Source: an uncultured Trueperaceae bacterium (GTDB lineage Bacteria > Deinococcota > Deinococci > Deinococcales > Trueperaceae). Taken from it: a stretch of DNA of 64,000 nucleotides. Each line of letters starts with the position of its first letter. Position 1 is the first letter of the stretch. A model generated the notes under the pieces. It had not been told where the DNA came from, did not search any database, and saw nothing but the letters and a program-made list of their open reading frames with translations. Position numbers and translations under genes: made by a program. Positions 22,153 through 53,497 of this stretch are shown one piece after another. The stretch covers positions 1 through 64,000 of the forward strand of contig CAJXOA010000005.1 in assembly GCA_913057685.1 (NCBI GenBank), written 5' to 3'.

Positions 22153-22707
22153 TCAGTGCGCGTCCTTCGACCTCCGCAGCTCCTGCAGCAGGAGTTTCGT
22201 GACGGCGGTGTGGCAGGTGGAGCAGGAGACGTCGGTCCCGAGGAACGGCGCGAGCTCCTCGAAGCTGGTGACGCCGTGCTCGCGGATGGCGTCGCGGACC
22301 CGGGCGCTGCTGAGGGCGTGCTCTTCGCAGACGTCGTGGTGCTCGACCTCCGCCAGGTCCCAGCGGTCGGGATCGGCCTGGTACTCGGCGTAGCGCGCCT
22401 CCCAGAAGGTGCGTTCGAACTCGACCATGGCGACCTCGAACCCCTCCATGTCGTTGGCGAGGTCGATGCCGTGCGCGGCGAGGCGGGCCTCCTCCTCGAG
22501 GAACGGCACCTCGAGGTCGACGAGCAGGTCGACGGCGCGCGCGACGAACGGACCGAGTTCGTCGCTGCGTTCGCGCAGGCCGCGGATCCGTTCGGGGGTC
22601 CAGGGGTCGTCGGGGGTGTCGACCATCAGGACCGGTAGGACGAGGTCCTTGGCGTCGCCGACCGCGGCGACGGCCGCTTCGATGAAGGCGCGTTCGTTGC
22701 GGATCAC
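22153..22707 (-). CDS. BFD-like [2Fe-2S] domain protein in the hydrogenase operon
   Basis: 184 residues from GTG with GGAGG five bases upstream, 10 bases after hypE. Residues ~1-120 are acidic and helical with no known domain. The C-terminal ~60 (HHDVCEEHALSSARVRDAIREHGVTSFEELAPFLG...SCSTCHTAVTKLLLQEL) match the bacterioferritin-associated-ferredoxin fold. In the usual CxC...CxxC set the second cysteine is missing (VCEE), leaving three cysteines with His nearby as a possible substitute. It could donate electrons to hydrogenase maturation or serve the adjacent DUF692 oxidase. Function is inferred from position only. Confidence 0.65.
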   Translation of the reverse strand: MIRNERAFIEAAVAAVGDAKDLVLPVLMVDTPDDPWTPERIRGLRERSDELGPFVARAVDLLVDLEVPFLEEEARLAAHGIDLANDMEGFEVAMVEFERTFWEARYAEYQADPDRWDLAEVEHHDVCEEHALSSARVRDAIREHGVTSFEELAPFLGTDVSCSTCHTAVTKLLLQELRRSKDAH

Positions 22708-22717
22708 GGCGACCTCC

Positions 22718-23818
22718 CTAGCAGATCCGGGGCAGCTGCTCCTCGATGGGCATCTCGAGGATGCGGCGGCTGCCGTAGGCGGTTTCGACGATGGGGGTGC
22801 CGGCGGGCTCCTTGACGATGTCGCCGATGATCGCCGCCTCCCGGCCGTGCGGGTGGGCCTTCATCGCGCCGAGCGCGGCGTCCGCCTCGTCGGGGGGGAC
22901 GACCATCAGGACCTTGCCTTCGTTGGCGGCGAGGAGCGGGTCGATGCCGAGCATCTCGCTGACGTCCTCGACGACGTCGTGGATCGGGACGGCGACGTCG
23001 AAGATCCGCAGGCCCCAGGGGCGGTCGAGGACGATCTCGTTGCCGACCGCCGCGAGCCCCCCGCGGGTCACGTCGCGCATGAAGCGGACGTTCGGGGCGA
23101 CGTCGCGGACGCGGGCGATCAGGTCGGTGAGGGGCGCGACGTCGGACTCCAGCTCGACGCCGATGTCGAGCCCTTCGCGCCGCGACATGACGGCGATCCC
23201 GTGATCGCCGAGCGTGCCGTTGACGAGGATCTTGTCGCCGGGCCGGATCTCGCCGGCGCCCATGCGGACGTCGTCGGGGAGGAACCCGACGCCGGCGGTG
23301 TTGACGAACAGCCCGTCGCCCTTGCCGCGCTCGAGGACCTTGGTGTCCCCCGCGACGATGGCGACGCCCGCCTCGTCGGCGGTGGCCTTCATCGAGCGGA
23401 CGACCCGCTCGAGCTCCGCCATGTCGTACCCCTCCTCCAGCAGGAAGGCGGCGGTGAGGTAGGCGGGGGTGGCACCCATGACGGCGAGGTCGTTGACCGT
23501 CCCCGCGACCGCGAGGCGGCCGATGTCGCCGCCGGGGAAGAAGGTCGGCGTGACGGTGTGCGAGTCGGTGCAGAAGGTCAGGCGGCCGGGCCGGTTCTCG
23601 AGCACCGCGGCGTCGGTGAGCTCCGCGAGGGGGGCGTTGCCGAACTCCGCGACGAACAGCTCCTGGATGAGTTCGAGGCTGAGTTTGCCGCCCGACCCGT
23701 GCGCGAGGCGAACGGAGCCGTAGCGGGAGCGGCCGGCCGTCCCCGTCCCTTCGCTGGAGGCGGGAGCGTCGGCGGTGGGGGTCCCGGCGGTGGGGGCGTC
23801 GTCAGGCGACTTCGACAT
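22718..23818 (-). CDS. hypE: Hydrogenase maturation factor HypE
   Basis: 366 residues. HypE dehydrates the thiocarbamate carried on its C-terminal cysteine to thiocyanate, source of the CN ligands of the [NiFe] active site. The protein ends in PRIC (C366), the carbamoylated residue. AIR-synthase-like ATP motifs are present: RLAHGSGGKLSLELIQELF, FCTDSHTVTPTFFPGGDIG, GTVNDLAVMGA and MRDVTRGGLAAVGNE. The first ~33 residues are a Thr/Ala/Pro-rich extension. The ATG overlaps the hypD stop by 17 bases. Its normal partner HypF is not encoded in the window. Confidence 0.95.
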   Translation of the reverse strand: MSKSPDDAPTAGTPTADAPASSEGTGTAGRSRYGSVRLAHGSGGKLSLELIQELFVAEFGNAPLAELTDAAVLENRPGRLTFCTDSHTVTPTFFPGGDIGRLAVAGTVNDLAVMGATPAYLTAAFLLEEGYDMAELERVVRSMKATADEAGVAIVAGDTKVLERGKGDGLFVNTAGVGFLPDDVRMGAGEIRPGDKILVNGTLGDHGIAVMSRREGLDIGVELESDVAPLTDLIARVRDVAPNVRFMRDVTRGGLAAVGNEIVLDRPWGLRIFDVAVPIHDVVEDVSEMLGIDPLLAANEGKVLMVVPPDEADAALGAMKAHPHGREAAIIGDIVKEPAGTPIVETAYGSRRILEMPIEEQLPRIC

Positions 23819-25019
23819 GAATCTTCTCCTTGCCCATGCCGAACAGGTACCAGGCGCGGCAGGTGCCCTCGTGGCTCACCATGCAGGGGCCGTAGGGGGC
23901 GTCGGGGGTGCAGAGCTTGCCGAAGACGCCGCACTCGTCGGGACGGATCTGGCCGAGGGTGACCTCGGCGCAGCGGCAGCCCTTGGGGTGCTCCGCGCCG
24001 GCGAGGTCGACGGCCTCGAGGTGCCCCGCGAATCGGTCGGTGGCGCTGTAGTGGCGGTAGGCGGGCCGCAGCTTGTAGCCCGACGCGGGGATCTCCGCGA
24101 TGCCGCGCCAGCGGATGGGGGCGATCTCGAACACCTCGTCGAGTTCGCGTTTCGCCTTCTCGTTGCCGTCGTACTTCACGAGGCGGTTGTAGGGGTTGTC
24201 GATGCGGGGGGTGCCGTCGCGGATCTGTTCGAGCAGCGCGACGATGGAGACGAGCACGTCGGCGGGTTCGAAGCCGCCGGCGGCGCAGGCGATCCCCTGT
24301 TCGGGGAGGTGTTCGTACACCCGCAGGCCGGTGATGGTGACGGCGTGACCGGGAAGGATGAACCCTTCGATGTCGAACCCGTCGAGGGTGGGCAGCAGGT
24401 TCGTCGCGGGCGGCGTGTAGTAGTTCGCCTCGATGATGCTGAGGTTGTCGGGCGCGCCGCGCTTCAGCATGGCGGCGACGGCGACGACGGTCGTTTCGAA
24501 GCCGACGCTGAAGAACACGACCTCCTTGTCGGGGTTCTCCTTCGCGAGCGTCGCGGCGTCGAAGACGCTGTAGACGGTGCGGACGTCGCCGCCCTGCGCG
24601 CGCGCGTCGAGCAGGCTCATGCGGACGTCGCCGCGCCGTTCCCCCTCGAGGGGGATGCTGCCGGGGACCGCCAGCATGTCGCCGAAGCTGGTGACGATCG
24701 TGTCGGGGCGTTGCGAAAGCTGGATGGCGAGGTTGATGTACTCGTTGTCGCAGACGCAGACGGGACACCCGGGGCCGGCGAGCACCTCGACCGATTCGGG
24801 GATGAGGTCGCGCAGCGCGAAGCGACCCATCTCGTGCTCGTGCGTGCCGCAGATGTGCATGAGCTTGACGGGGCGCCCGATCTCGTCGGCGAGCGACGCG
24901 ATCTTGGCCTGCAGGCCGGCGACGACGTCGGCGTCCTTGTAGACGTGCGGATCGAAGGCGTCGTGCGCGTCCGTCGCCCGGGGCGGCGCCTCGTGCGTGC
25001 GGGGGTCGGCGTCAGGCAC
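23802..25019 (-). CDS. hypD: Hydrogenase maturation factor HypD
   Basis: 405 residues from GTG, overlapping hypC by eight bases. HypD, with HypC, builds the Fe(CN)2CO unit. Seen: MHICGTHEHEM, the redox pair GPGCPVCV, FFSVGFETT, and the C-terminal cysteines for the [4Fe-4S] cluster (KGCRCAEV, DECGVFGKLC, YGPCMVSHEGTC). A ~20-residue N-terminal extension (Pro/Asp/His-rich) precedes the conserved start. Confidence 0.95.
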   Translation of the reverse strand: MPDADPRTHEAPPRATDAHDAFDPHVYKDADVVAGLQAKIASLADEIGRPVKLMHICGTHEHEMGRFALRDLIPESVEVLAGPGCPVCVCDNEYINLAIQLSQRPDTIVTSFGDMLAVPGSIPLEGERRGDVRMSLLDARAQGGDVRTVYSVFDAATLAKENPDKEVVFFSVGFETTVVAVAAMLKRGAPDNLSIIEANYYTPPATNLLPTLDGFDIEGFILPGHAVTITGLRVYEHLPEQGIACAAGGFEPADVLVSIVALLEQIRDGTPRIDNPYNRLVKYDGNEKAKRELDEVFEIAPIRWRGIAEIPASGYKLRPAYRHYSATDRFAGHLEAVDLAGAEHPKGCRCAEVTLGQIRPDECGVFGKLCTPDAPYGPCMVSHEGTCRAWYLFGMGKEKIHVEVA

Positions 25020-25242
25020 GGGTCTCGGGCTCCAGGTACGTCTGGATGAGTTGCAGGTTGGCCTTCGCCTCCTCCGGTTCGATCCGGTCGATGGCGAAGC
25101 CGGCGTGGACGACGACCCACTCGCCGGGCTTCAGGTCCTCGACGAGGCCGATGAAGCAGTGCTGCTTCACGTCGCCGACCTTGATGAGGCAGGTGTCCTC
25201 GTCCATCACGTCGACGACCTCATGGGGGATGCCTAAGCACAT
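25012..25242 (-). CDS. hypC: Hydrogenase maturation chaperone HypC
   Basis: 76 residues. It begins MCLGIP; the Cys2 thiol (after Met removal the N terminus) carries the Fe(CN)2CO group to the large-subunit precursor. The small OB-fold core VGDVKQHCFIGLVEDLKPGEWVVVHAGFAIDRIE is standard. GGGAGACC lies before the ATG. Placed between hypB and hypD. Confidence 0.95.
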   Translation of the reverse strand: MCLGIPHEVVDVMDEDTCLIKVGDVKQHCFIGLVEDLKPGEWVVVHAGFAIDRIEPEEAKANLQLIQTYLEPETRA

Positions 25243-25279
25243 GGTGGTCTCCCTTCCTCGAACATCGTGCCGGCGCCTC

Positions 25280-26044
25280 TCAGCGCGCGGCGGCGACGCC
25301 GGCGCCCGCAGGTGCCCCGGCGATGGTGCTGCGTTTCTCGGCCTGGCGTTCGCGTAGCCACGCGGTCCAGGCGTCCATCCCCTCGCCGGTGCGAGCGGAG
25401 GTTTCGAAGACGGTGGCGGACGGCGCCACCTTCCGCACGGCGTCGAGCGCCGCGTCGCGATCGAAGCCGACGGCGTCGGCGATGTCGATCTTGTTGATGA
25501 TGACCGCGTCGGCGTCCTTGAAGATGCGCGGGTACTTCAGCGGCTTGTCCTCGCCCTCGGTCGTGCTCAGCATCGTGACGCGCAGGTCCTCGCCGAGGTC
25601 CCAGGCGGCGGGACAGACGAGGTTGCCGACGTTCTCGATGACGACGACGTCGAGCTGGTCGACGTCGAGGCCGTCGACGGCGCGCGCGACCATCTCCGCT
25701 TCGAGGTGGCAGACGGCGCCGGTCACGATCTGGACCGACGGCGCGCCGGCCCCGTGGATGCGGACGGCGTCGTTGTCGGTCTCGAGGTCGCCGACGACCA
25801 CGCCGACGCGGAGGGTCTCGGCGAGGTCGGCGACGGTGCGTTCCATCAACGCGGTCTTGCCGGACCCGGGCGAGGAGACGATGTTGAGGACGAGGCGGTC
25901 GCCGAACCGCGTGCGGTTCTCGGCGGCGACGCCGTCGTTGTGCGTCATCAACGACTTCTGGACCTGGACGGTGCGGACGTCGCTGCCGTCGACGCCGCCG
26001 TGCGCGTGGAGCGCGACGTCGCGGGTGCCGGGGTTCGTGCTCAT
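25280..26044 (-). CDS. hypB: Nickel-insertion GTPase HypB
   Basis: 254 residues. SIMIBI GTPase that delivers nickel to the hydrogenase large subunit together with HypA. Walker A is SSPGSGKTALM; other blocks are VVGDLETDNDA, TGAVCHLEAEMV (metal-site cysteine and histidine), VVIENVGNLVCPAAWDLGE and INKIDIAD. The N terminus has neither the CxxCGC nickel motif nor a His-rich tail, so nickel storage is not expected; only a few scattered His (HAHGG) occur. Confidence 0.95.
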   Translation of the reverse strand: MSTNPGTRDVALHAHGGVDGSDVRTVQVQKSLMTHNDGVAAENRTRFGDRLVLNIVSSPGSGKTALMERTVADLAETLRVGVVVGDLETDNDAVRIHGAGAPSVQIVTGAVCHLEAEMVARAVDGLDVDQLDVVVIENVGNLVCPAAWDLGEDLRVTMLSTTEGEDKPLKYPRIFKDADAVIINKIDIADAVGFDRDAALDAVRKVAPSATVFETSARTGEGMDAWTAWLRERQAEKRSTIAGAPAGAGVAAAR

Positions 26045-26063
26045 GATGGACCTCCCGTTCGCA

Positions 26064-26411
26064 TCACGTGACCTCGAGGTGGGCGAGCTGCAGCTCGCGC
26101 CCCTGCCATAGGTTCGCCGATGGCGTGCCGCAGGTGGGGCACAACGCCACGCCGTAGCGGTTGTCGAGTTCGAAGTCGGATTCGCAGGCGGCGCAGCGGG
26201 CCATCGCGGGCAGGTAGTCCACCTCGAGCCGGGCGCCTTCGGCCATCGTGCCGTCGCGCGCGCCTTGGAAGGCGAACTCGAGCGCTTCGGGCACGACGCC
26301 GGCGAGGGCGCCGATCTCGAGGTGGATGGCGTCGATGCGCGACGCCCCCTCCTCGCGGGCGGAGTGTTCGGCGAGGTCGAGCATGCTCAGCACGATCGAC
26401 ATCTCATGCAT
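26064..26411 (-). CDS. hypA: Nickel metallochaperone HypA
   Basis: 115 residues. It starts MHEMSI, where His2 binds nickel, and carries the structural zinc site CAAC...CPTC in the last third. Works with HypB. The ATG overlaps the protease gene hyaD by eight bases. Confidence 0.95.
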   Translation of the reverse strand: MHEMSIVLSMLDLAEHSAREEGASRIDAIHLEIGALAGVVPEALEFAFQGARDGTMAEGARLEVDYLPAMARCAACESDFELDNRYGVALCPTCGTPSANLWQGRELQLAHLEVT

Positions 26412-26988
26412 GCGCGAGCTCCTCCTGCGCGGCGATGGCGCCCATGACGATCGCTTCGGTGTCGAAGGGCTCGTCGGGGCGGATCGTGGGGTCGCGGTCG
26501 GTGACCGTGACGCCGTGCGCCTCGAGTTCGCGCAGGACGACGGTCGCGAGCGCGCCGAGGCGTTCGCGGATCGTTTCGCTCAGGACCGCACCGACCTCGC
26601 CGGTCTCGAACTCGAGGGGGCGGACGCCGATCGCGGTGATGGTGACGTCGGGCAGGTCGCCGTGGAGGTCCATGGCGGACAGCAGGTCGGGAACCTCCCA
26701 CTCGTGGGAGGAGAGTTTTCCGTAGCCGATTTCGCTGGGGACGTCGTCGCGCCCGAACCGGTAGACCTTCCCGGTGGGCGCGGCGACGGCGTCGACGAGG
26801 ACGACGTGGTCGTACTCGGCGATGAGGTTCAGCAGGTGCCATCCCAGGGTGCCGCCGTCGACGACGTCGACGTGGTCGGGGAAGGCGTAGCGGGTGCGCA
26901 GGTAGTGCATGAGGTGCACGCCCGCCCCCTCGTCGCCGTAGTAGACGTTGCCGACGCCGAGCACCAACAGCGGGCGTGCTTCGCTCAT
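26404..26988 (-). CDS. hyaD: Hydrogenase maturation endopeptidase (HyaD/HupD family)
   Basis: 194 residues. It cleaves the C-terminal extension of the large subunit after nickel insertion. The family N terminus LLVLGVGNVYYGDEGAGVHLMHYL carries the nickel-sensing Glu (DEG). VVDGGTLG supplies the Asp and SSHEWEVPDLL the His ligand. Located directly after the cytochrome gene and before hypA, as in hya operons. Its substrate's 16-residue tail is present in HyaB. Confidence 0.93.
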   Translation of the reverse strand: MSEARPLLVLGVGNVYYGDEGAGVHLMHYLRTRYAFPDHVDVVDGGTLGWHLLNLIAEYDHVVLVDAVAAPTGKVYRFGRDDVPSEIGYGKLSSHEWEVPDLLSAMDLHGDLPDVTITAIGVRPLEFETGEVGAVLSETIRERLGALATVVLRELEAHGVTVTDRDPTIRPDEPFDTEAIVMGAIAAQEELAHA

Positions 26989-26992
26989 GTCC

Positions 26993-27820
26993 TCACCCTT
27001 CCTTCGTCGTGTCCTCGGCCGCCGGTTCGCCCGGGGCCTCGAAGTCGTCGTCGGTCGCCTCGCGGGCGTCCGGCATGTCCTTGGCGGCGAATCCGGAGAT
27101 GATGCCTTCGACCAGCAGGTTACCGGTCCGCATGCTGTTCCAGACGGCCATGTAGATGTGCACCAGGGTGAAGAGGATGAAGAACCACATCGTCACGTGG
27201 TGCAGCGTGCGTACGTTGGCGATCCCGCCGAGGGCGGTCTCGATGGGCGACAGCAGGCCGGCGCTCCAGACCGCGACCCCGCTCTGCAGGTAGGGCGCGG
27301 CGATGAGGATGCCGGTGACGCTGATGATCAACAGCGCGGCGTACAGCGCGGTGTAGACCAGGTACTGCAGGGGGCCGTAGTTGCTGTACGTGAAGTGCGG
27401 GTGCTCGCGGCGCATCAGCAGGTAGAAGGCGAGCTGGTCGCGCCACGCCTTCCAGTTCACCAGGATGGGCGCCATCTTGAGTTCCTTGCCGAGGCCGAGG
27501 CGGCCGCGTTCGTTGATGAACAGGAACTGGTAGATGCGCGCGATGGTGAAGGCGAGCAGGATCCAGCCGGCGGCGACGTGCCACCCGCGGACCTGCGCGA
27601 GCGTGAAGGTGCTCGACGTGTCGCCGGTGAGGCTGCGCGCGAGGAACGGGTTGCCGAGGTAGATGCCGCTCAGCACCAACCAGATCAGCAACGCGTTGCG
27701 GATCCAGTGGGCCGCCCGGACGTAGCGCCCGAAGACGTACACCACCATGCGGGGGCGTCCCTCGCGTTCCAGCACCACCGCATCCTTGCGGGGCGGCAGG
27801 CGGCGGGTGTCGGTCGTCAC
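26993..27820 (-). CDS. hyaC: Hydrogenase b-type cytochrome subunit
   Basis: 275 residues from GTG, four bases after the hyaB stop. Four transmembrane helices with histidines placed for two b haems: RAAHWIRNALLIWLVLSGIYL, VRGWHVAAGWILLAFTIARIY, ALYAALLIISVTGILIA, and RTLHHVTMWFFILFTLVHIYMAVW. HyaC anchors the periplasmic enzyme and passes electrons from H2 to quinone. The loop with LGLGKELKMAPILVNWKAWRDQLAFYLL matches the family. The C-terminal tail is acidic and probably cytoplasmic. Confidence 0.94.
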   Translation of the reverse strand: MTTDTRRLPPRKDAVVLEREGRPRMVVYVFGRYVRAAHWIRNALLIWLVLSGIYLGNPFLARSLTGDTSSTFTLAQVRGWHVAAGWILLAFTIARIYQFLFINERGRLGLGKELKMAPILVNWKAWRDQLAFYLLMRREHPHFTYSNYGPLQYLVYTALYAALLIISVTGILIAAPYLQSGVAVWSAGLLSPIETALGGIANVRTLHHVTMWFFILFTLVHIYMAVWNSMRTGNLLVEGIISGFAAKDMPDAREATDDDFEAPGEPAAEDTTKEG

Positions 27821-27824
27821 GGCG

Positions 27825-29519
27825 TCACACCTCCACTTCGAAGCGGGCGATCTCCTCCCCGTCGCGGTTCAGCACGTGGACCGCGCAGGCGAGGCAGGGG
27901 TCGAACGAGTGGATGGTGCGGACCACCTCGAGCGGGCGCTCGGGGTCGCTCATGGGTTGCGTGACGAGGGCGGCCTCGTAGGCGCCGCGCTGTTCGCGGC
28001 CGTCCTTCGGGCTGGCGTTCCAGGTCGAGGGGACGACCGCCTGGTAGTTGGCGACCGAGCCGTTCTCGATGGTCAGCCAGTGGCTGAGGCTGCCGCGGGG
28101 CGCTTCGCCCATCGCCCACCCGGGCCCGTCCTTGGGCTCGTAGCGGTTGAAGAAGCGGTCGTCGCCGCTGGCGACGTTCTGCGTGAGGTTCGTGACGAGT
28201 TCGGGCACGTAGTCGGCGATGATCTTCGTCTCCAGCCCGCGGGCGACGGTGCGACCGACGGTGGAGTACCAGAAGTCGAAGGGGACGCCGATCGTGTCGG
28301 TGAAGTCGTCCATGACGGTCTGGACCTTCTCGTCGCCGGCGGCGTACGCCACGATGAGGCGCGCGAGCGGGCCGACCTCGACGGGTTGCCCGTCGTACCT
28401 CGGCGACTTGATCCAGCTGTAGCCGCCCTCGGTCTTGAGGGTGCCGTCCTCGTTGAGGCCCTCGTAGTTCGGGTTCGTCTGGCCGTCGAGGGGGTGCAGC
28501 GCCGTTTCGCCGCCCTCGTAGTCGTACCAGGCGTGCGCGACCTCCTCGGCGATCTTCATGGGGTCGACGTCGTGCACGGTGCTCAGGTCGCGGTCGAGGA
28601 CCAGGCCGGCGGGCAGGAAGTGCGCGCGCTGGTCCCAGGGCCGCTCGTCGAGGCTCATGGCGCCGAACGACATGTAGTTGCGCAGGCCGCCCCCTTCGCC
28701 GGCGAGCGCTTCGGTGCGGTAGCGCCGGGCGATGAGTTCGAGGTCGGGCAGGTAGGCGCGCTCGACGAAGTCGGCGGACTTCTGGATGAGGAACTGGTAC
28801 TCGGCGATGCGGTGCGCGTCGAGCGCGTCGCGGGCCGAGGTCATGCCGCCGACGATGAGGCTTTGCGGGTGCGGGTTCTTGCCGCCGAAGATCGCGCTGG
28901 CCTTCGCGCTCATGCGCTGCACCGCGAGGTTGTCGAGGTAGTGGCTGGCGATGATCAGGTTCTCTTCGGGGCTGAGGCGGTACTTGGGGTGCCCCCAGTA
29001 GCCGCCGGCGAACGGGCCGAGCTGGCCGGACTGCACGAACGCCAGGAGGCGTTCGGCGACCTGGGTGTAGTGCGACTCCGAGGCGTTGTACGGCGTGCGG
29101 TGGAACTGGTGCGCGATCTCGGTCGCGGCGACGGGGTCGGCGTCGAGGGCGCTGACGACGTCGAACCAGTCCATCGCGTGCAGTTGGTAGAAGTGCGTCG
29201 TGTGGTCGTTGATCGCCTGCGCCGCCCAGATGAGGTTGCGGAGCATGCGGGCGTTCGGCGGGAGGGTGACGCCGAAGGCGTCCTCGGTCGCTTCGACGCC
29301 GCGTTCGTAGTGGTGGAAGGTGCACACGCCGCAGATGCGTTGCGCGAACATGCCGACGTCCTTCGGGTCGCGGCCGCGCATGATGTTCTCGAACCCGCGG
29401 AAGGCGGTGCTACTGCTGGCCGCCTCCTCGACGACGTTGTTCGTCTCGTCGACTTCGATCTCGATGCGCAGGTGCCCTTCGATGCGGGTGATGGGGTCGA
29501 TGACGTGTTTCGCGGCCAC
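27825..29519 (-). CDS. hyaB: [NiFe]-hydrogenase large subunit
   Basis: 564 residues from GTG. Catalytic subunit for H2 oxidation. Nickel ligands are C63 and C66 (RICGVC) and C542 and C545 (DPCLACAVH). A 16-residue tail after H548 is the peptide removed by HyaD. Typical group 1 blocks: DPITRIEGHLRIEIEVD, GGYWGHPKYRLSPEENLIIASHYLDNL, and APRGSLSHWLTIENGSVANYQAVVPSTWNASPKD. It has no signal peptide and would be exported with the Tat-tagged small subunit. Confidence 0.96.
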   Translation of the reverse strand: MAAKHVIDPITRIEGHLRIEIEVDETNNVVEEAASSSTAFRGFENIMRGRDPKDVGMFAQRICGVCTFHHYERGVEATEDAFGVTLPPNARMLRNLIWAAQAINDHTTHFYQLHAMDWFDVVSALDADPVAATEIAHQFHRTPYNASESHYTQVAERLLAFVQSGQLGPFAGGYWGHPKYRLSPEENLIIASHYLDNLAVQRMSAKASAIFGGKNPHPQSLIVGGMTSARDALDAHRIAEYQFLIQKSADFVERAYLPDLELIARRYRTEALAGEGGGLRNYMSFGAMSLDERPWDQRAHFLPAGLVLDRDLSTVHDVDPMKIAEEVAHAWYDYEGGETALHPLDGQTNPNYEGLNEDGTLKTEGGYSWIKSPRYDGQPVEVGPLARLIVAYAAGDEKVQTVMDDFTDTIGVPFDFWYSTVGRTVARGLETKIIADYVPELVTNLTQNVASGDDRFFNRYEPKDGPGWAMGEAPRGSLSHWLTIENGSVANYQAVVPSTWNASPKDGREQRGAYEAALVTQPMSDPERPLEVVRTIHSFDPCLACAVHVLNRDGEEIARFEVEV

Positions 29520-29522
29520 GGT

Positions 29523-30773
29523 TCACTGCTCCTTCTTCGCGTCGCTGCGCGATTCGGTCGCGGCTTTGAGGGCGGTCGCGCCGGCGTGGATCGCGACGCC
29601 CGCCGCGGCGGCGCCGAGGGCGACGGTGCCGATGGTGTCGGCGTCCGCGTCGGTCCCGAACGGCGTGGAGTAGACGCGCCCGGCGAGGGGCACTTCGAAC
29701 GGCGTGAGGGTGTCCCAGAAGCCCGGTTCGCTGCAGCCGATGCAGCCGTGGCCGGCCATGATGGGCCAGGAGGCGCCTTCGTTGTAGCGGACGACGCCGC
29801 AGTTGTTGTACGCCATCGGGCCCTTGCAGCCGACCTTGAAGAGGCACAGCCCCGCCTTGAGGCCTTCGATGTCGGTCCAGCCTTCGACGAACTCGCCGGC
29901 GTCGAAGTGCCCGCGGCGTTCGCACTTGTCGTGGATGCGGTCCTGGTACGCCCAGAGGGGCCGACCGTAGGCGTCGAGCGACGGCAGGCGGCCGAACATG
30001 GCGTACTCGAGGATCGTGCCGACGACGTTGGTGCTGGAGACCGGGCAGGCGGGCAGGTTCACGACCGGCGTGCCGATGCCGCGCTGGCCGAGGAAGTCCG
30101 CGACGCCCATGGCGGTCGTCGGGTTGGGGCGCGCGGCGGGGATGCCGCCGTAGGCGCTGCAGGTGCCGGCGGCGATGACCGCGGCGGCGTGGCGGGAGAT
30201 GTGCTCGACCTTGTGGACGCCGGTCTCGCCGGTCGGGCCGATCGTGAGGTAGCCGCCGTCCTCGGCGACGGGGACGGAGCCCTCGAACACCGCGATGTAC
30301 TGCCCGTCGTAGCGTTCGATCGCGTCGGCGAGGACGTCCTCGGCCGCTTGGCCGGAGGGCGCCATGAGGATCTCGGCGTACTCGAGGCTGATCAGGTCGA
30401 GGAGCAGCTCGTCGGTGCCGGGGTTGGCGTTGCGGATGAGCGCCATGCTGTTGCCGCTGCAGGACTGCAGCTCCTGCCAGATGACCGGCAGGCGGGTGGC
30501 GACCTCCTGGGCGCGGGCGACGCGCAGGTCGAACATCGGGGGAAGACCCAGCGTCGCGGTCATCACCGCCGACATCTTGAGGAAGTCGCGGCGGCTGAGG
30601 CCACGTCGCTTGAGGACGTCGTCGAGCGTGACGTCGTGGACCGGATCCTGCGCTTCGAGCCGGTCGAGGTTCTTGTCGGCCTCCGCCGCGAGCCACTCGT
30701 AGTGTTCCTGGGTTCGTGCCTCCAGGTCGTGGTGGGTCGGGTCGGGGCCTGCGTGCCTACGTGCTGTCGTCAT
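29523..30773 (-). CDS. hyaA: [NiFe]-hydrogenase small subunit, Tat-exported, with altered proximal cluster ligands
   Basis: 416 residues from ATG with GAGGAG upstream. The Tat motif RRDFLK is at 61-66, behind an unusually long (~60 residue) charged N-region. The proximal [4Fe-4S] site has C105, C205 and C243, but the motif CxxC is CSGN (N108), so one expected cysteine is missing; CSGN is, from memory, a feature of actinobacterial-type group 1h enzymes. Distal and medial cluster ligands (HDKC, LCLF, GCKGP, NNC, SWPIM, GCIGC) are intact. A C-terminal transmembrane helix anchors it. First gene of the operon. Confidence 0.93.
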   Translation of the reverse strand: MTTARRHAGPDPTHHDLEARTQEHYEWLAAEADKNLDRLEAQDPVHDVTLDDVLKRRGLSRRDFLKMSAVMTATLGLPPMFDLRVARAQEVATRLPVIWQELQSCSGNSMALIRNANPGTDELLLDLISLEYAEILMAPSGQAAEDVLADAIERYDGQYIAVFEGSVPVAEDGGYLTIGPTGETGVHKVEHISRHAAAVIAAGTCSAYGGIPAARPNPTTAMGVADFLGQRGIGTPVVNLPACPVSSTNVVGTILEYAMFGRLPSLDAYGRPLWAYQDRIHDKCERRGHFDAGEFVEGWTDIEGLKAGLCLFKVGCKGPMAYNNCGVVRYNEGASWPIMAGHGCIGCSEPGFWDTLTPFEVPLAGRVYSTPFGTDADADTIGTVALGAAAAGVAIHAGATALKAATESRSDAKKEQ

Positions 30774-30975
30774 GCGCTCCTCCTCGCGCGGTCGATGCGT
30801 CCCCCGGGGCGCATCGTGGGCGGGCCGGGTCGCTCCCTCGGCCCTGGGTTCACGGGTTCGGATCGGCCCCGACCGCATGGCCGGCGATCGGGGCGTGGGG
30901 AGATCCGTCCCTCGCGATGCGGCGAACGTAGCAGCGCACCCCGTGGCCGTGATGGGGCATCCGTCCCCTGACCTC

Positions 30976-30989
30976 GTGAACGTTTTCAC
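30976..30989. promoter_or_regulatory. CRP/FNR-family binding site
   Basis: GTGA (30976-30979), six bases, TCAC (30986-30989); the palindrome extends one base pair on each side (C...G). Its centre is about 64 bases upstream of the expected hyaA transcription start, close to the -61.5 class I spacing. It is flanked by CCGTCCCC (30961-30968) and GGGACGG (30994-31000) in inverted orientation. Confidence 0.6.
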
Positions 30990-31023
30990 GTGAGGGACGG
31001 GGGTGCGCCACCCCCCCGCGCGC

Positions 31024-31037
31024 GGGACGTTCGTCCC
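31024..31037. promoter_or_regulatory. DosR-box-like palindrome
   Basis: A perfect 14-base palindrome, GGGAC-GTTC-GTCCC, in the hydrogenase/peroxidase control region. Its half-sites and N4 spacing equal those of the mycobacterial DosR consensus core (GGGAC-TWWA-GTCCC). Confidence 0.5.
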
Positions 31038-31204
31038 TCGGGCCCCTCATCCGGCGCTCATACGCTGACGTCACCGACGCGACGGCCGCCCCTGCGGCAG
31101 GTCCCCGTCGCCGCACGGGCGCCGGCCCCCCACGCACCGGGCGTGGCGCACGCCGCCCCCTCGCCCCCGGGAGGAACAGGGCCTCCCGAAAGGACGGAAC
31201 CGAC

Positions 31205-32308
31205 ATGACGCGACGTTCCCTTCCCCGCCTCCTCGCCCTCGCCGTGGCGATCGCCTCGCTCGCCGCGTTCCTCGGGACCGCCACCGCCCAGGACGACCCG
31301 GTCGACCCGCTGATCGCCCGCGCCCAAGCGCTGTTCGAACCGATCCCCGAGGGCCACGCCGAACTCGAGGACAACCCCTACAGCGAGGCCAAGATGGAGC
31401 TCGGCCGCATGCTGTGGTTCGACCCGCGCCTCTCCGCCTCGTGGGCGATCAGCTGCAACAGCTGCCACAACGTCGGGATGGCCGGCGTCGACCTGCAACC
31501 GAAATCGATCGGCCACAACTGGCAGCGCGGCGGCCGCAACTCCCCCACGATGCTGAACGCGGTGTTCAACATCGCGCAGTTCTGGGACGGTCGCAGCGAG
31601 GACCTCGCCGCCCAGGCGATGGGCCCGATCCAGGACGCCCTCGAGATGGCGAACACCCCCGAGCGGGCAGTCGAGACCCTGAAGAGCATGCCCGGGTACG
31701 TCGAGGCGTTCGAAGCCGCCTTCCCCGACCAGGCGGACCCGGTGACCTTCGAGAACGTCGCGCTGGCGATCGAGGTCTTCGAATCGACGCTCCTCACCCC
31801 CAACGCGCCGTTCGACCTGTTCATGCAGGGCGACGAGGACGCGCTGACGCAGGAGGAGAAGGACGGCTTCGAGCTGTTCGTCAACAAGGGCTGCGTCAGC
31901 TGCCACATGGGCATCAACATTGGCGGCACCGGCTACTTCCCGTTCGGCGTCGTCGAGCGCCCCGACGCGTTCATCCTCCCCGAGGACGACCTCGGCCGCT
32001 ACTCGGTCACGAACGTCGAGGCGGACAAGTACGCCTTCAAGTCGCCCAGCCTGCGCAACATCGAACTCACCCCGCCGTACTTCCACTCCGGCTCCGTCTG
32101 GAGCCTCGAGGACGCGGTCCGCATCATGGGCGACGCGCAGCTCGGCGCGACCCTGACCGACGACGACGTCGCCAAGATCACCGCCTTCCTGCGCAGCCTC
32201 ACCGGCGACCAGCCCGAGGTGACCGTCCCGGCCCTGCCGGAGATCACCGAGGACACGCCGCTCCCCGTCGCCGCCCCGCAGGAGGACGCCAGCGCCTCCG
32301 CCGACTGA
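31205..32308 (+). CDS. Di-haem cytochrome c peroxidase (CCP/MauG family)
   Basis: 367 residues with a Sec signal peptide (cleavage near TATAQ, residue 29). Two c-haem sites: C84-x-x-C87-H88 (CNSCH) and C230-x-x-C233-H234 (CVSCH). Family blocks NPYSEAKMELGRMLWFDPRLS, RNSPTMLNAVFN and FKSPSLRNIELTPPYFHSGSVWSLEDAV are intact. It would reduce H2O2 in the periplasm using cytochrome c electrons. The divergent promoter shared with the hydrogenase suggests coupled expression, perhaps protecting the enzyme when O2 is present. The tail after ~340 is disordered. Confidence 0.94.
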   Translation: MTRRSLPRLLALAVAIASLAAFLGTATAQDDPVDPLIARAQALFEPIPEGHAELEDNPYSEAKMELGRMLWFDPRLSASWAISCNSCHNVGMAGVDLQPKSIGHNWQRGGRNSPTMLNAVFNIAQFWDGRSEDLAAQAMGPIQDALEMANTPERAVETLKSMPGYVEAFEAAFPDQADPVTFENVALAIEVFESTLLTPNAPFDLFMQGDEDALTQEEKDGFELFVNKGCVSCHMGINIGGTGYFPFGVVERPDAFILPEDDLGRYSVTNVEADKYAFKSPSLRNIELTPPYFHSGSVWSLEDAVRIMGDAQLGATLTDDDVAKITAFLRSLTGDQPEVTVPALPEITEDTPLPVAAPQEDASASAD

Positions 32309-34346: not shown

Positions 34347-37064
34347 TCAGCCGGGGGGCGGGCGACAGACGACGTCGCTGGTCGATACGCCCGCGATCGT
34401 CCAGCCCAGCCCGTCGACGAGCGCGTCGCAGGCGGCCTGCGCCTCGGGCGTGGAGGGACGCATCGCATCCACGGTCTGGCCGCCACCGGGGAACCCGGGC
34501 GGCCCGAGCTCGACGCCCTGGACGGGGAGGGGGACGACCGACCCCTCGAGCGCACCGGCGAGGCTCTGCGCAACCTCCAGGCCCACCGGCAACGCCAGCT
34601 CGCGCGCTGCGTCGGCCGCGAAGGCGTCGGTCTGCGCGACGTTCAGGTAGACGTCGGTGAAGCTCGCGTCCGCGGTGACGAGGCGCACCCAGAAGCGGTC
34701 CTCGTCCTCCGTCGCCCGGAGGGCCCCGAAGGGGATCCCGTGGGGCGACTCCAGGACGACGACCGACGAGGCCGACACCGTCGTATCGCTCGCCGAGAGG
34801 TCGCCCCGGTAGATCCGCGGGACGGCGGCGTCGGCGGGGCTGAACGGGCGGGCGTCCACCACCCGGATCGGCGCGCCCTCCCCCCGGACGGCGTCCGCCC
34901 ACCCCACGAGGGTCGCGTCGTAGTTCGCCTGCGACAGGCCGCTGGCCTCGAACGCCAGGTTCATCTTCGCGACGGTGCGGACGTCCCACCCGCCGAGGTC
35001 CCGGTCGAAGGAGGTCGCGTTCTCGAAGGCGTAGGACATGTCCTGGACCGACGACACGTCCCATCCGCCGATGGCCCCGTCGAACGCCTGCGCGCCCCGG
35101 AACGTCCCGTACAGGCTCGTCGCCGACCCGGTCTCCCACGTACGCACGTCGCCGTCGAACGCCAGGGCGTTCCGGAAGGTGTTCGTGAAGTCCTCGACCT
35201 GCGCGACGTCCCAGTCCCCGAGGTCCTCGTCGAACGCCACGGCGCCTGCGAAGGTCGAGTCCAGCGAGGAGACGTTCGCGACGTCCCACGCCCCGACGCC
35301 CGCGGTGAACGACGTCGCCCCGGCGAACGTCGAGGTCAGATTCGTGACCCCCGAGGTGTCCCAGCCCGAGAGGTCGGCGTCGAACGACGTGGCGTCCTGG
35401 AACGCCTTGGAGAGGTCGGTGACGGTGGACGGAAGCCACGTCGGGACCCTCGTCAGATTGGACGCCCCCTGCATCACCCCGTCGAACGACGTCGCGCCGG
35501 TCGCGCCCCAGGAGACGACCTCCGTGACGGTCTGGGCTCCGCTCCACGCCACCCCACTCCCGTAGGCATCCAGCGGCCCCTCGATGCGCAGCTCGTAGGG
35601 GACCGGCGCGCTCGGCGGTCCGGCGTCGGCGACGCCGATCAGCGGCCCGTTCGGGCCCGGCTTTTTGCTCGCTTCCGAGATCCCGTCCGGCCACGCCACC
35701 GACACGCTGGTGGGGCTCACCGGGAGGGCGAAGACCTGATCGGTGTTCGGGTTCACGTCGCCGGACGAGATCGTTCCGCGCAGGACCATCGCGCGGGTGA
35801 CGGGGGCGTAGGTCGCGGCGGGGCCGGGGCCCGCCGCGTTGACGGCGCGCAGTTCGACGACGTGATCGTTCCAGTCGGGGAGGGCGCCGGCGTACGCGAC
35901 GCGCCGCCCCCGCGGCCCCGTGGGCGACGCCCCGAGCCCCTCGACCACCGTCCATGCGGTCCAGTCGCTGCCGCTCACGGCGCGGCGGCGGGCCTCGTAC
36001 CGCACGACCGGCGCGCCGCCGTCGTCCGGCGGGTCGAAGCGCAGCACGGTGCGGGCCGGGAGGCCGGCGGCCGCGTCGGCGACCTCGGGCCAGGCGACGA
36101 ACGCGGTCGGGGCCGCGGGCACGGTGCGGGGGGTGCCGGCGACGGGCGCCGACGCGGCACCGGGCCCCGCGGGCGTGACCGCCCGCAGGCGGAGCGCGTA
36201 GGCGCGCCCGACGTCGAGGCCGGACACCGTCACGGGCGGCGCGGCATCGGGCGGGGCGAGGGGGGTCCACGTCGCGCCGTCGTCGGCGCTCCAGGCGTAG
36301 TTCGTGATCGACACGCCGGTGGGGGACGGCGGCGTGAAGTCGACGGTCAGGAACCCGTCCCCGGGCGACGTGGCGAGGTCGCTGGGCGCCCCGGGGGGAC
36401 CGACGGGCGTGACGGTCACCGGCGCCGAGGCCGGGCCGACGCCCGCGGCGTTACGGGCGCGCAGCCGAATCGTGGCGGGCACGCCGTTCGGGAGGTCGGG
36501 CACCACGACGGGGGGCGTGGGGTCGGGGGGCGCGAGGTCGGTCCACGTCGCGCCGTCGTCGAGGCTGTAGGCGTGGTTCGTGACGCCGTCCCCGGCGGGG
36601 GTGAAGGCGATCTCCGCCGCTCCGTCGCGCGGCGTCGCGACGAGGTCGGTGGGCGCACCGGGCGCGGCGGACGGGGGCGCGAGGATCGTGACCGTGACGC
36701 CCTCCTGGGCGGGGCCCGCGACGCCGTCGACGACCAGCTGTACGTCGCAGACCGAGCCGGGCTCGAGGGCCGGCACCTCGCCGAGCAGGCGGGGGTACCG
36801 CGCCGCGGTGGCGTCGGCGGCGGAGACGACGGCGCCGTCGTCGGTCGCGAACCGCGGCGCGTCGAGCGGCGTCTCGCACGCCGCGAGGCGGGTGGCGGGC
36901 GTGAAGAGGCCGCGACCCTCGAGGGTCGTGCCGGGGGCGGCGCGGGTGGGCGTGATGGATTCGAGGACGGGCTCGACGGCGGCGCGGTTCGATCCGCAGC
37001 CGCTCAGGCCCGCGAACGCCAACCCGAGGGCCAGCGACGGTAGCAGCCAACGACGTAACAACAT
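34347..37064 (-). CDS. Surface lipoprotein: IPT-like domain, FN3 domains and BspA/DUF285 repeats
   Basis: 905 residues. Lipobox LSGC at about residue 23. It shares with the RCC1 lipoprotein an N-terminal module (ITPTRAAPGTTLEGRGLFT with a following LAAC...PL) and a series of fibronectin-III-like domains (ending like RARNAAGVGPASAPVTVTP). Instead of a propeller, it ends in about seven 26-residue DUF285 repeats (for example ATSFDADLSGWDTSGVTNLTSTFAG), a leucine-rich-like solenoid typical of BspA adhesins. A ~190-residue C-terminal domain follows. ATG preferred over TTG at 37088 because a -35/-10 pair ends seven bases before it. Confidence 0.85.
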   Translation of the reverse strand: MLLRRWLLPSLALGLAFAGLSGCGSNRAAVEPVLESITPTRAAPGTTLEGRGLFTPATRLAACETPLDAPRFATDDGAVVSAADATAARYPRLLGEVPALEPGSVCDVQLVVDGVAGPAQEGVTVTILAPPSAAPGAPTDLVATPRDGAAEIAFTPAGDGVTNHAYSLDDGATWTDLAPPDPTPPVVVPDLPNGVPATIRLRARNAAGVGPASAPVTVTPVGPPGAPSDLATSPGDGFLTVDFTPPSPTGVSITNYAWSADDGATWTPLAPPDAAPPVTVSGLDVGRAYALRLRAVTPAGPGAASAPVAGTPRTVPAAPTAFVAWPEVADAAAGLPARTVLRFDPPDDGGAPVVRYEARRRAVSGSDWTAWTVVEGLGASPTGPRGRRVAYAGALPDWNDHVVELRAVNAAGPGPAATYAPVTRAMVLRGTISSGDVNPNTDQVFALPVSPTSVSVAWPDGISEASKKPGPNGPLIGVADAGPPSAPVPYELRIEGPLDAYGSGVAWSGAQTVTEVVSWGATGATSFDGVMQGASNLTRVPTWLPSTVTDLSKAFQDATSFDADLSGWDTSGVTNLTSTFAGATSFTAGVGAWDVANVSSLDSTFAGAVAFDEDLGDWDVAQVEDFTNTFRNALAFDGDVRTWETGSATSLYGTFRGAQAFDGAIGGWDVSSVQDMSYAFENATSFDRDLGGWDVRTVAKMNLAFEASGLSQANYDATLVGWADAVRGEGAPIRVVDARPFSPADAAVPRIYRGDLSASDTTVSASSVVVLESPHGIPFGALRATEDEDRFWVRLVTADASFTDVYLNVAQTDAFAADAARELALPVGLEVAQSLAGALEGSVVPLPVQGVELGPPGFPGGGQTVDAMRPSTPEAQAACDALVDGLGWTIAGVSTSDVVCRPPPG

Positions 37065-37071
37065 GGGCGCC

Positions 37072-37101
37072 AAAATACGCCGGTTCAAGGGTTTGGGTCA
37101 A
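37072..37101 (-). promoter_or_regulatory. Leaderless promoter of the DUF285 lipoprotein
   Basis: On the minus strand TTGACC (37096-37101), an 18-base spacer and TATTTT (37072-37077), then seven bases to the ATG at 37064. No ribosome site exists between the -10 box and the start, so the mRNA should begin at the start codon. Confidence 0.65.
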
Positions 37102-50664: not shown

Positions 50665-51051
50665 ATGGACCACGTCGAAGTGAAAGTTTGGGTTCCCGAG
50701 GCGCGCCTCACCGAGTTCTACGCCCTGATGGGGCGGTGGCTCGCGGGGGACGCGGACCTGCCCAGCGCGCGTCGCGGCGCGCGGCGGTCGCGGCGCGCGA
50801 GCGGCCCCTCGGCCAGCAGTTACGCCGCCATCGGCACGCACCTCGCCGACGTCAGCGAAGGCGAAAAGACGCTGTCGTTCGACGAGATCGAATCGATCAT
50901 CGGGCGGGCGCTCCCCGCGAGCGCGCACCGGCACCGCGCCTGGTGGGCGAACACCGATACGCACTCGCAGGCGCTCACCTGGCTGTCCGCCGGGTGGAAG
51001 GTCGAGGCCGCCGACCTCGACGCCCGCGAAGTCACCTTCGTTCGCGACTGA
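50665..51051 (+). CDS. DUF7662 domain protein
   Basis: 128 residues. After a short N-terminal beta segment and an Arg/Ser-rich linker, residues ~53-127 form the DUF7662-type domain: YAAIGTHLADVSEGEKTLSFDEIESIIGRALPASAHRHRAWWANTDTHSQALTWLSAGWKVEAADL. The fold is often tied to restriction or nucleic-acid-binding proteins, but no activity is known. GGAGGG ribosome site; TAGACT at 50617-50622 gives a leader of about 36 bases. Its last 20 bases overlap the convergent antiporter gene. Confidence 0.75.
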   Translation: MDHVEVKVWVPEARLTEFYALMGRWLAGDADLPSARRGARRSRRASGPSASSYAAIGTHLADVSEGEKTLSFDEIESIIGRALPASAHRHRAWWANTDTHSQALTWLSAGWKVEAADLDAREVTFVRD

Positions 51052-52309
51052 CCGACCGGTCGCTCCCCTGCGGCACCGCGCCGCCCCCGCGCATGGCCTC
51101 GAGCTCCGCGCGGCGGGCGGCGTCGCGTTTGCGGGCCGCCGGACTGCGCAGCAGCCGCCCCAACCGGTCGCTGACCGCGTCGTAGCGGGCGAACACCACG
51201 CTGCCGAGCAGGATCGACGCGACGACGTACGCCGACACCGTCGCGTACAGCGCGACGCGGACGTCCGCAGGAATCTGCGGCGCGGCGGCGGCGAGCCCCA
51301 GGATCACGAGGCTGAACTCGCCGCGGGGCAGCAGCATCAGGCCGTGCCCCGCCGCCCCCCGCCACGACAGGCCGGTCGCGCGGCCCGCCACCGTCCCGGT
51401 CGCGATCTGCGTCGCCACCATCAGCGCGAGCAACCCCAGCGCCTGCGGGAGGACCGCCCACGCCGCCGCCAACTCGACGTGAAGGCCGACGTCGAAGAAG
51501 AACACCGCCCCCGCGACCGCCAACCAACTCGCGAGCGCCCCCTCCACCCGCTCGCGGTGCGTCGAGCCGGCGACCGCCATGCCCAGCAGGAACGCCGCGA
51601 CCGCTTCGGGGAACCCCAGCGTCTTCGCGGCCAACGACGCCACCAGCAGGCCCCCGAGCAGGAGCAGCACGAGCGTCTCCCCCTCGCGCTCCAGGAGCCG
51701 CTCGAGGGCGTCCCGGCCGAACCGCACCAGCACGACGTAGCCGAGCAGCACCGCCGCGACCCCCGCGAACCGCCACGGGTCGCCGCCCGCCGTCGCCAGG
51801 CCGAGCCCGCCCAGCACCACGACCATCGCCAGGTCCTCGAACACCAGCACGCCGAGCGTGCGTTCCGCCTCGGGGTAGGCGATCAACGCGCGTTCGCTCA
51901 ACAACTTCGCGATCACCCCGCTGCTGCTGATGTACACCGCCGCCCCGAGGAACACCGCCCCCCACGCGCCGAACCCCAACGCCAGGCCGGCGGCGATCCC
52001 GACGACGAGGTTGATCAGGTCGATCGAGCCCGCGAGCAGCGTCGCGCGGCCGCCCTCCACGAACCGCTGGACGGTGAACTCGAGCCCCATCGTGAACAAC
52101 AGCAACAACAGCCCCAACTCCGCCAGCAGGTCGGTGACCGGTCCCGGCTCGAACGGCGCGACCGGCCCGCCGGCGAGGACGCCGCCCGGACCGACGACCA
52201 TCCCGAGCACCAGGAACCCCGCGACGCTCGAGACGCCGACCTTGCGCGACCCCCACGCCGCGGCGAACAGCGCGAGGGCCAACAGCCCGAAGGTCCAGGC
52301 GGCGTTCAC
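51032..52309 (-). CDS. khtU: CPA2-family K+(Na+)/H+ antiporter, KhtU-like
   Basis: 425 residues from GTG, four-base overlap with the regulatory subunit gene. About 12 transmembrane segments; typical blocks GFLVLGMVVGPGGVLAG, LGLLLLLFTMGLEFTVQRF, AVYISSSGVIAKLL, and FEDLAMVVVL, the acidic pair region of monovalent cation/proton antiporters. GEFSLVILGLA is the later conserved motif. The pairing with a TrkA-C/KhtT-like protein points to K+ efflux (KhtTU). The C-terminal tail is Arg/Ala-rich. Confidence 0.9.
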   Translation of the reverse strand: MNAAWTFGLLALALFAAAWGSRKVGVSSVAGFLVLGMVVGPGGVLAGGPVAPFEPGPVTDLLAELGLLLLLFTMGLEFTVQRFVEGGRATLLAGSIDLINLVVGIAAGLALGFGAWGAVFLGAAVYISSSGVIAKLLSERALIAYPEAERTLGVLVFEDLAMVVVLGGLGLATAGGDPWRFAGVAAVLLGYVVLVRFGRDALERLLEREGETLVLLLLGGLLVASLAAKTLGFPEAVAAFLLGMAVAGSTHRERVEGALASWLAVAGAVFFFDVGLHVELAAAWAVLPQALGLLALMVATQIATGTVAGRATGLSWRGAAGHGLMLLPRGEFSLVILGLAAAAPQIPADVRVALYATVSAYVVASILLGSVVFARYDAVSDRLGRLLRSPAARKRDAARRAELEAMRGGGAVPQGSDRSVSRERR

Positions 52310-52833
52310 CGCCCGGCGTCGAGCCCGCCGTCGGTCGCTTCGACGACCGCCCTCGCGGCGTCGGTCTGCGCTTCGCTGCCGATCAGGACCAGCACGTCGC
52401 CCGCCTCGAACACCGCCCCGACGTCGGGGTTGGCGATCGCCTCCTCGCCGCGCAGGATCGCGACGACGCTGGCGCCGGTCCGGCGTCGTAACCGCGACTC
52501 ACCGAGCGTGTGCCCCACCAGCGGCGAGGCGTCGGGCACGTCGACCCACTCGATCTCCAGCGCCCCGAGCACCAGGTCCATGCGTTCGGGGTCGGGCGCC
52601 GCGACGGGCGGCGTCCCGAGGAGCGCCGCGACCTGGCGGCCCTCCTCGGGCTGCATCGTCACGACGTCGCAGGGGCGGTCGTCGTCCTCGAGGAAGTGGA
52701 ACAGCTGCCGTTCGCCGCTCGGCTTGACGAGGAGCGTGACGCTCCCCCCCGACGCGAGCGGCATGACGTACTTCGTGCCGACGCCGGGCAGCGTCGACGT
52801 GTAGACCTCGGGCGCTTCGGGGGCCTCGCTCAT
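52306..52833 (-). CDS. khtT: Regulatory subunit of the antiporter, KhtT-like with TrkA-C domain
   Basis: 175 residues. The N-terminal half (TLPGVGTKYVMPLASGGSVTLLVKPSGERQLFHF) matches the KhtT N domain. The C-terminal RCK/TrkA-C domain (LGESRLRRRTGASVVAILRGEEAIANPDVGAVFEAGDVLVLIGSEAQ) binds a nucleotide such as c-di-AMP in KhtT. It gates the adjacent antiporter at the inner membrane. Confidence 0.88.
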   Translation of the reverse strand: MSEAPEAPEVYTSTLPGVGTKYVMPLASGGSVTLLVKPSGERQLFHFLEDDDRPCDVVTMQPEEGRQVAALLGTPPVAAPDPERMDLVLGALEIEWVDVPDASPLVGHTLGESRLRRRTGASVVAILRGEEAIANPDVGAVFEAGDVLVLIGSEAQTDAARAVVEATDGGLDAGR

Positions 52834-52839
52834 GGGCCC

Positions 52840-52845
52840 AGGATA
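52840..52845 (-). promoter_or_regulatory. Leaderless -10 box of khtT
   Basis: Minus-strand TATCCT, six bases before the khtT ATG, without a ribosome site. Only 16 bases separate khtT from the end of the upstream response regulator gene, so read-through from it is also possible. Confidence 0.45.
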
Positions 52846-52849
52846 CGCC

Positions 52850-53488
52850 TCAGTCGACCAGGCCGTGCTCCAACGCCCACCGCACCAGTTCGGCGCGGGT
52901 GCGGACCCCCAACTTCTCGCTGGCCCGCTCGCGGTACGTCGCGACGGTCTTCTCGCTGATCCCGAGCTGCGCGGCGATCTCGCGGTACGTCGCGCCCTGC
53001 GCGATCTGCGTCACGACCTCCCCCTCCCGCCGCGTGAGGGTCGCGTGCTGGAACGGGTCGCCGTTCGCCATCGCCCGCGCGACGTCCGCCAACAACCGGG
53101 CGGGGGCGTAGTACTCCCCCCGCGCGACCGCCCGGATGGCGTCGACGAGGTCGGTTTCGACGCTGGTCTTGGGCACGTACCCCGACCCGCCCGCCTCGAG
53201 GAAGGCGTGGACGTACTCCGCGTCCTCGTGCATCGAGAGCGCCACGAGGCGCGCGTCGGGCGCGCGTTCGCGCAGCAGCGCGACCGCCTCGATGCCGTTC
53301 ATGCCGGGCAGCGACAGGTCCAACAGCACGACGTCGGGACCGGCGGCCGACACCCGCTCGAGCGCCTCCTCCGCCGAGCCCGCCTCGCCGACGACGTCGA
53401 AGCCGACCTCGTCCTCGAGCAGCAGCCGGACGCCGGCGCGGAGGATGGCGTGATCGTCGACGACGAACAGGCGAAGGGGGGACGTCAT
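52850..53488 (-). CDS. NarL/FixJ-family response regulator
   Basis: 212 residues. Receiver domain: acidic pair D11-D12, phospho-acceptor D57 (VLLDLSLPGMNG), switch S85, K107 (GYVPKTS). The LuxR-type HTH at ~148-212 reads LTRREGEVVTQIAQGATYREIAAQLGISEKTVATYRERASEKLGV. Follows the sensor kinase gene on the same strand by nine bases. TAGAAT (53495-53500) lies six bases before the ATG and overlaps the kinase's TAG stop, so it may also have its own leaderless promoter. DNA target unknown; a DosR-like box lies in the hydrogenase region. Confidence 0.93.
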   Translation of the reverse strand: MTSPLRLFVVDDHAILRAGVRLLLEDEVGFDVVGEAGSAEEALERVSAAGPDVVLLDLSLPGMNGIEAVALLRERAPDARLVALSMHEDAEYVHAFLEAGGSGYVPKTSVETDLVDAIRAVARGEYYAPARLLADVARAMANGDPFQHATLTRREGEVVTQIAQGATYREIAAQLGISEKTVATYRERASEKLGVRTRAELVRWALEHGLVD

Positions 53489-53497
53489 GCCCCGATT

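Follow-up and report, generated by a model that had tools for sequence, protein, structure and literature searches.

A DosR/OsdR-like palindrome between divergent hydrogenase and di-haem peroxidase genes is a predicted operator of respiratory genes in Trueperaceae

Results

The stretch of 64,000 nucleotides analysed here (the window) belongs to the genome of a Trueperaceae bacterium (G000; 2.29 Mb, 74.5% GC), a member of the Deinococcota and not of the Actinobacteria. A [NiFe] hydrogenase operon on the minus strand and a di-haem peroxidase gene on the plus strand diverge from a common control region, in which box 1 (GGGAC-GTTC-GTCCC) is located (Table 1). This is the only exact GGGAC-N4-GTCCC match within the window. 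The hydrogenase of a Trueperaceae relative is 87% identical to the one described here. Box 1 had been described in the original prediction as a perfect palindrome, which holds for its half-sites and not for its centre, which reads GTTC on one strand and GAAC on the other. Three more half-sites had been announced nearby and are indeed present (30905-30914, 30961-30970 and 30991-31000, the last on the minus strand). Four CGTCCCY half-sites within 140 bases form the densest cluster of the window, although their number is only marginally unusual under uniform placement (P ~0.09).

The palindrome lying between boxes 1 and 2 could provide a second input, of the CRP or Rex type, and a similar string, GTGAAGGTTCTCAC, adjoins the box of a flavin dehydrogenase gene. 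The one-mismatch match GGGAGATCCGTCCC is probably a half-site at most, because its left half is not kept in the close relative G004. The small protein encoded among the maturation genes gave a weak match to NifU/bacterioferritin-associated-ferredoxin-like proteins.

Table 1. Features of the window. Gene calls are mechanical; the assignment of gene starts and -10 hexamers relied on visual inspection and mechanical open reading frames.
Feature	Position	Strand	Remarks
Box 1, GGGACGTTCGTCCC	31024..31037		Predicted operator of the MauG-type di-haem peroxidase promoter
Box 2, GGGGCATCCGTCCC	30954..30967		Predicted operator of the hydrogenase promoter
GTGAACGTTTTCAC	30977..30990		CRP/FNR- or Rex-like palindrome between the boxes, ~65 bp 5' of the inferred hydrogenase start site
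GGGAGATCCGTCCC	30898..30911		One mismatch to the box pattern
-10 hexamer TACGTT, hydrogenase operon	30925..30930	-	Inferred; kept in three species inside diverged sequence
-10 hexamer TACGCT, di-haem peroxidase gene	31061..31066	+	Inferred; kept in three species
[NiFe] hydrogenase small subunit, TAT signal	29523..30773	-	TIGR00391
[NiFe] hydrogenase large subunit	27825..29519	-	
Hydrogenase cytochrome b subunit	26993..27820	-	TIGR02125
Hydrogenase maturation: HyaD/HybD-type protease, hypA, hypB, hypD, hypE, small protein	22153..26988	-	
MauG/MbnH-like di-haem cytochrome c peroxidase family protein	31205..32308	+	Divergent to the hydrogenase
913-aa protein with DUF285 repeats and an fn3 domain	34347..37088	-	Unusual for the group
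NarL-type response regulator	52850..53488	-	Reader of box 1 in the original prediction; recognition helix SEKTVATYRERASEK (KTVATY)

A genome-wide scan for GGGAC-N4-GTCCC had been proposed as a check. Pattern searches of the whole genome gave 13 such sites, whereas 5-16 are expected from Markov models of order 0-3, and the loose count was thus discarded as evidence since it equals chance. In contrast, the exact 14-mer of box 1 was found eight times against 0.06-0.25 expected, a 30- to 130-fold excess, and the centre GTTC/GAAC is carried by 8 of the 13 loose sites. In the window, one-mismatch matches likewise stay close to chance expectation (13 against 12.0), and loose-pattern counts in the genome G002 are mostly background. 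The reversed pattern had no match in the source genome, a control that is weak owing to composition. Across the 94 genomes of the order, the form with an RWWY centre was counted at 135 places, compared with 15 for the reversed pattern, both figures being sums over listed genome rows. As the GWWC centre was picked after seeing the data, independent tests weigh more. All eight exact copies appear upstream of or between genes, as judged from mechanical open reading frames and Pfam domain starts. With the loose pattern at chance and the 14-mer enriched, it is not the N4 pattern that carries significance but the conserved centre, the location at promoters and the persistence in relatives.

Eight exact copies of the 14-mer are likewise found in the close relative G004, and five of the eight sites of the source genome lie in regions that align with this relative. 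At the TctC site the centre flips between GAAC and GTTC from one genome to the other while the half-sites are unchanged. Box 1 is kept in G004 and has one mismatch in G003, a species of the same genus whose assembly is 89% complete. Much of the region has diverged in G003, yet the two boxes and the two -10 hexamers are still present there, box 2 as the perfect palindrome GGGACGCACGTCCC. The position of GTGAACGTTTTCAC reads GGGACATTTGTGCC in G003 and is GGGAC-like. Two other Trueperaceae hydrogenase operons (L177 and L178) have promoters without a GGGAC box. In each of these loci an Rrf2-like regulator gene, recognised by eye from its translation, lies 5' of the operon, ~2.9-3.5 kb into the locus.

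The spacing between boxes and hexamers was compared between promoters. Exactly 23 nt separate the end of box 1 from TACGCT and the end of box 2 from TACGTT on the minus strand, and the same 23 nt spacing is observed at the PEPCK|6PGD site in three species. Overall, 11 of 92 directions (8 separate promoters) have a -10-like TAnnnT hexamer 22-25 nt from a box, while ~2 are expected from other positions. A different spacing, usually 13 nt, separates box and hexamer in genus g20. At TctC a good promoter (TTGACG-17-TATGCT) is found upstream of the box, which would fall near +23, and at the flavin dehydrogenase gene a TACTCT hexamer is followed by the box.

In the source genome, exact copies are found at the hydrogenase and di-haem peroxidase genes, a Pyr_redox_2-family flavin-dependent dehydrogenase, TctC, a SorT/SorA-like sulfite dehydrogenase, DUF302, DUF3105, PEPCK|6PGD and SDR|V-type ATPase. 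Boxes with other centres are associated with COX2-COX1, an SQR-like gene and a CoA-transferase. In relatives, sites lie upstream of Pyr_redox_2 dehydrogenases (G014, G019, G022, G023 and G026), a family-level assignment that covers NDH-2 or quinone reductases. Others are found at cytochromes c (G029, G030 and G014), a multicopper oxidase (G014), DUF302 (G019), COX2 (G008, two boxes 33 bp apart) and near a COX2-like gene read from its translation (G018). In other families, sites occur at a sulfite dehydrogenase, an MBL-rhodanese protein and an oxidase-assembly-like gene, the last read from sequence. Nearly every genome of genus g20 contains 1-3 sites, 18 loci of which form one cluster, with the site upstream of a QrcA-like multihaem cytochrome in two loci read (one of them scanned).

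CsoR/CstR-like palindromes, (A)TACCCC..GGG(G)TA, were noticed beside the box at DUF302, SQR-like and MBL-rhodanese genes (L007, L013, L225 and L250), and this proximity suggests combined control by a sulfur sensor.

When symmetrised, the site reads (A/C)GGGAC(G/A)WW(C/T)GTCCC(T/G). By sequence it is closest to the boxes of OsdR and DosR, with which it has the GGG/CCC half-site frame and the spacing in common. Like the DosR (DevR) consensus of Mycobacterium tuberculosis, TTSGGGACTWWAGTCCCSAA (PMC2275270), it consists of GGGAC/GTCCC half-sites with N4 spacing around an A/T-containing centre and is linked to respiration or hypoxia genes. It does not fit the full 20-nt consensus: the DosR box has a T-W-W-A centre and outer TT/AA, whereas the site has a G-W-W-C centre (R-W-W-Y in the general form) and, in place of outer TT/AA, only a preference for outer A/C. 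The targets also differ from the DosR regulon, as they comprise hydrogenase, oxidases, cytochromes and sulfur oxidation, and the Usp and ATPase genes of the window are without a box. The OsdR 16-mer of Streptomyces coelicolor, AGGGCCGATCGGCCCT (PMC5069765), resembles the site in being a 16-nt palindrome with a G-W-W-C centre and outer A/T, but its consensus differs at the fourth half-site base, which is C and not A; one of the predicted OsdR sites, that of SCO0200, lies upstream of the gene and has the sequence GGGGCCGACCGTCCCT (PMC5069765).

The site also falls into the xxGA-N6-TCxx register of CRP/FNR sites, with which it shares a predicted class II position and respiratory targets. CRP sites prefer T at the outer position, whereas T is excluded there in the sites described here (6%), which moreover have a GGGA half-site and no A/T-rich flanks. 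In Thermus, a conserved palindrome of the CRP/FNR kind, CTTGACCNNGGTCATGG, overlaps the DnrT footprint and contains GAC-N4-GTC (PMC5748679).

Candidate regulators were examined for the base-contact residues of DosR, Lys179, Lys182 and Asn183 (PMC4082495). Among the four GerE-domain proteins of the genome, a DosR-like helix (K, R, N) is found only in the response regulator G000:C41:3366-4028 (hereafter the C41 regulator). Its helix, SEKTVRNRLSEVFSK (KTVRN), retains two of the three residues, Lys179 and Asn183, and carries Arg at the position of Lys182, a conservative change; the K182R variant of DosR retains DNA binding (PMC5999986). The NarL-type regulator of the window keeps Lys179, but Ala and Thr replace Lys182 and Asn183. 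By these residues, the C41 regulator fits a DosR/OsdR-like box better than the window regulator.

The recognition helix of the C41 regulator is invariant over the order in the alignment, f5 genomes included, and homologues are present in the two g25 genomes searched. However, the RWWY site was found in none of four f5 and none of 17 g25 genomes. The distribution of the C41 regulator thus does not follow that of the operator, and co-occurrence lends it no support. A search in front of its gene and of the genes of other candidate regulators gave no box with fewer than two mismatches. Beside the sites themselves, the only regulator gene was a distant L014-like match, several kb off at one G004 locus. 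Unlike OsdR, whose gene adjoins the kinase gene osdK, the C41 regulator is an orphan, with no adjoining kinase gene in the locus read. The only HisKA_3 kinase found in the genome has a GAF domain and is encoded on a different contig (G000:C4). On C41 of G000 and on the matching contigs of relatives, the gene of the DosR-like regulator has a CRP-family gene of the L116 type within a few kb, a neighbourhood conserved in many Trueperaceae genomes.

At least five CRP-family proteins are encoded in the genome, one of which, L122, was compared across genomes. It appeared at first to be the match, being present within the genus only in G000, G002 and G004, and was then rejected as an order-wide regulator because it is absent from G008, G022 and G029, three genomes with sites at genes of the same kinds.

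Discussion

Near-identical copies 5' of hydrogenase, cytochrome, oxidase and sulfur-oxidation genes indicate, at the level of sequence, that the palindrome is a real regulatory site. The original prediction of a DosR-like box in the hydrogenase control region is borne out as a predicted DosR/OsdR-like operator, whose copies in the genome precede redox genes. The sites point to a respiratory gene network, apparently undescribed, in this bacterium and its relatives. No match to the motif strings was found in the literature searched, which lay mostly outside subscription papers; because most of the latter fell outside its scope, this is weak evidence of novelty.

We propose that boxes 1 and 2 are read by one dimeric transcription factor that would act at both divergent promoters, that of the hydrogenase and that of the di-haem peroxidase. 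Each box is centred ~42 bp 5' of the inferred start, so that the factor would contact RNA polymerase in the manner of a class II activator. At TctC and the flavin dehydrogenase gene, where the box is at or just 3' of the inferred start, it should repress. In Trueperaceae and related families, the same operator, (A/C)GGGAC-RWWY-GTCCC(T/G), would control a regulon for respiration and lithotrophy, with hydrogenase, cytochromes c, cytochrome oxidases, flavin dehydrogenases, sulfite dehydrogenase and DUF302 as putative members. The likeliest regulator, though an uncertain one, would be the C41 regulator, perhaps driven by the GAF-domain HisKA_3 kinase in response to a respiratory or redox signal, which is a guess. 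Taken as a whole, with one factor, class II position, a shared regulon and the C41 regulator as likeliest reader, we favour this model with modest confidence.

The main rival is that the boxes are operators of the CRP/FNR family, read as GGGA-N6-TCCC, with GTGAACGTTTTCAC as a related site. The register of the boxes, their class II position near -42 and a redox gene content typical of FNR are consistent with it, as are the GGGAC-like box that occupies the GTGA site position in G003, the number of CRP-family proteins and the GAC-N4-GTC of the Thermus palindrome at the DnrT footprint. The exclusion of outer T, the flanks that are not A/T-rich and the lack of L122, the one paralogue compared, where sites exist argue against it, and we consider this rival possible but rather unlikely. 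Still less probable is that the boxes are read by another family, e.g. Rrf2, GntR or ArsR. The C41 regulator and L122 both differ from the motif in phyletic distribution, and an Rrf2-like gene is upstream in two other Trueperaceae hydrogenase operons; yet these two operons have no GGGAC box, and a 14-bp palindrome with an N4 centre is a standard form of NarL-type or CRP/FNR operators.

It had originally been suggested that the window regulator is the equivalent of DosR, which would bind box 1 and control hydrogenase, Usp and cation ATPase genes. It is a NarL-type protein that aligns to DevR over its length, and kinase, Usp and P-type ATPase genes adjoin it. Nevertheless, two of the three DosR base-contact residues differ (KTVATY in place of KTVKN), and the regulator, Usp and ATPase genes are not preceded by any box with fewer than two mismatches. 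We thus regard this assignment as very improbable. The counterparts of DosR-regulon genes exist as Usp and P-type ATPase genes, but without such a box. For these members, the proposed correspondence to the mycobacterial regulon therefore does not hold. In the window, a Na+/H+ exchanger, a TrkA-C protein, the NarL-type regulator, the kinase, Usp and the P-type cation ATPase are encoded together (51032-58224); a good GGGAC box was not found in this segment. Finally, a chance match in a GC-rich genome agrees with the frequency of the loose N4 pattern, but is practically dismissed by the excess of the exact 14-mer, the position and spacing kept in relatives and the order-wide excess over the reversed control.

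Coming back to the favoured model of one factor and a shared operator, we tentatively suggest, as a possibility somewhat short of probable, that Trueperaceae and related Deinococcota have an apparently undescribed respiration and lithotrophy regulon, in which a DosR/OsdR-like operator and a DosR-like regulator outside Actinobacteria would switch hydrogen oxidation, sulfur oxidation and terminal oxidases together. If this is true, a poorly studied phylum would gain a global respiratory regulator, one operator would tie hydrogen and sulfur oxidation to the oxidases, and DosR-type logic would extend beyond Actinobacteria.
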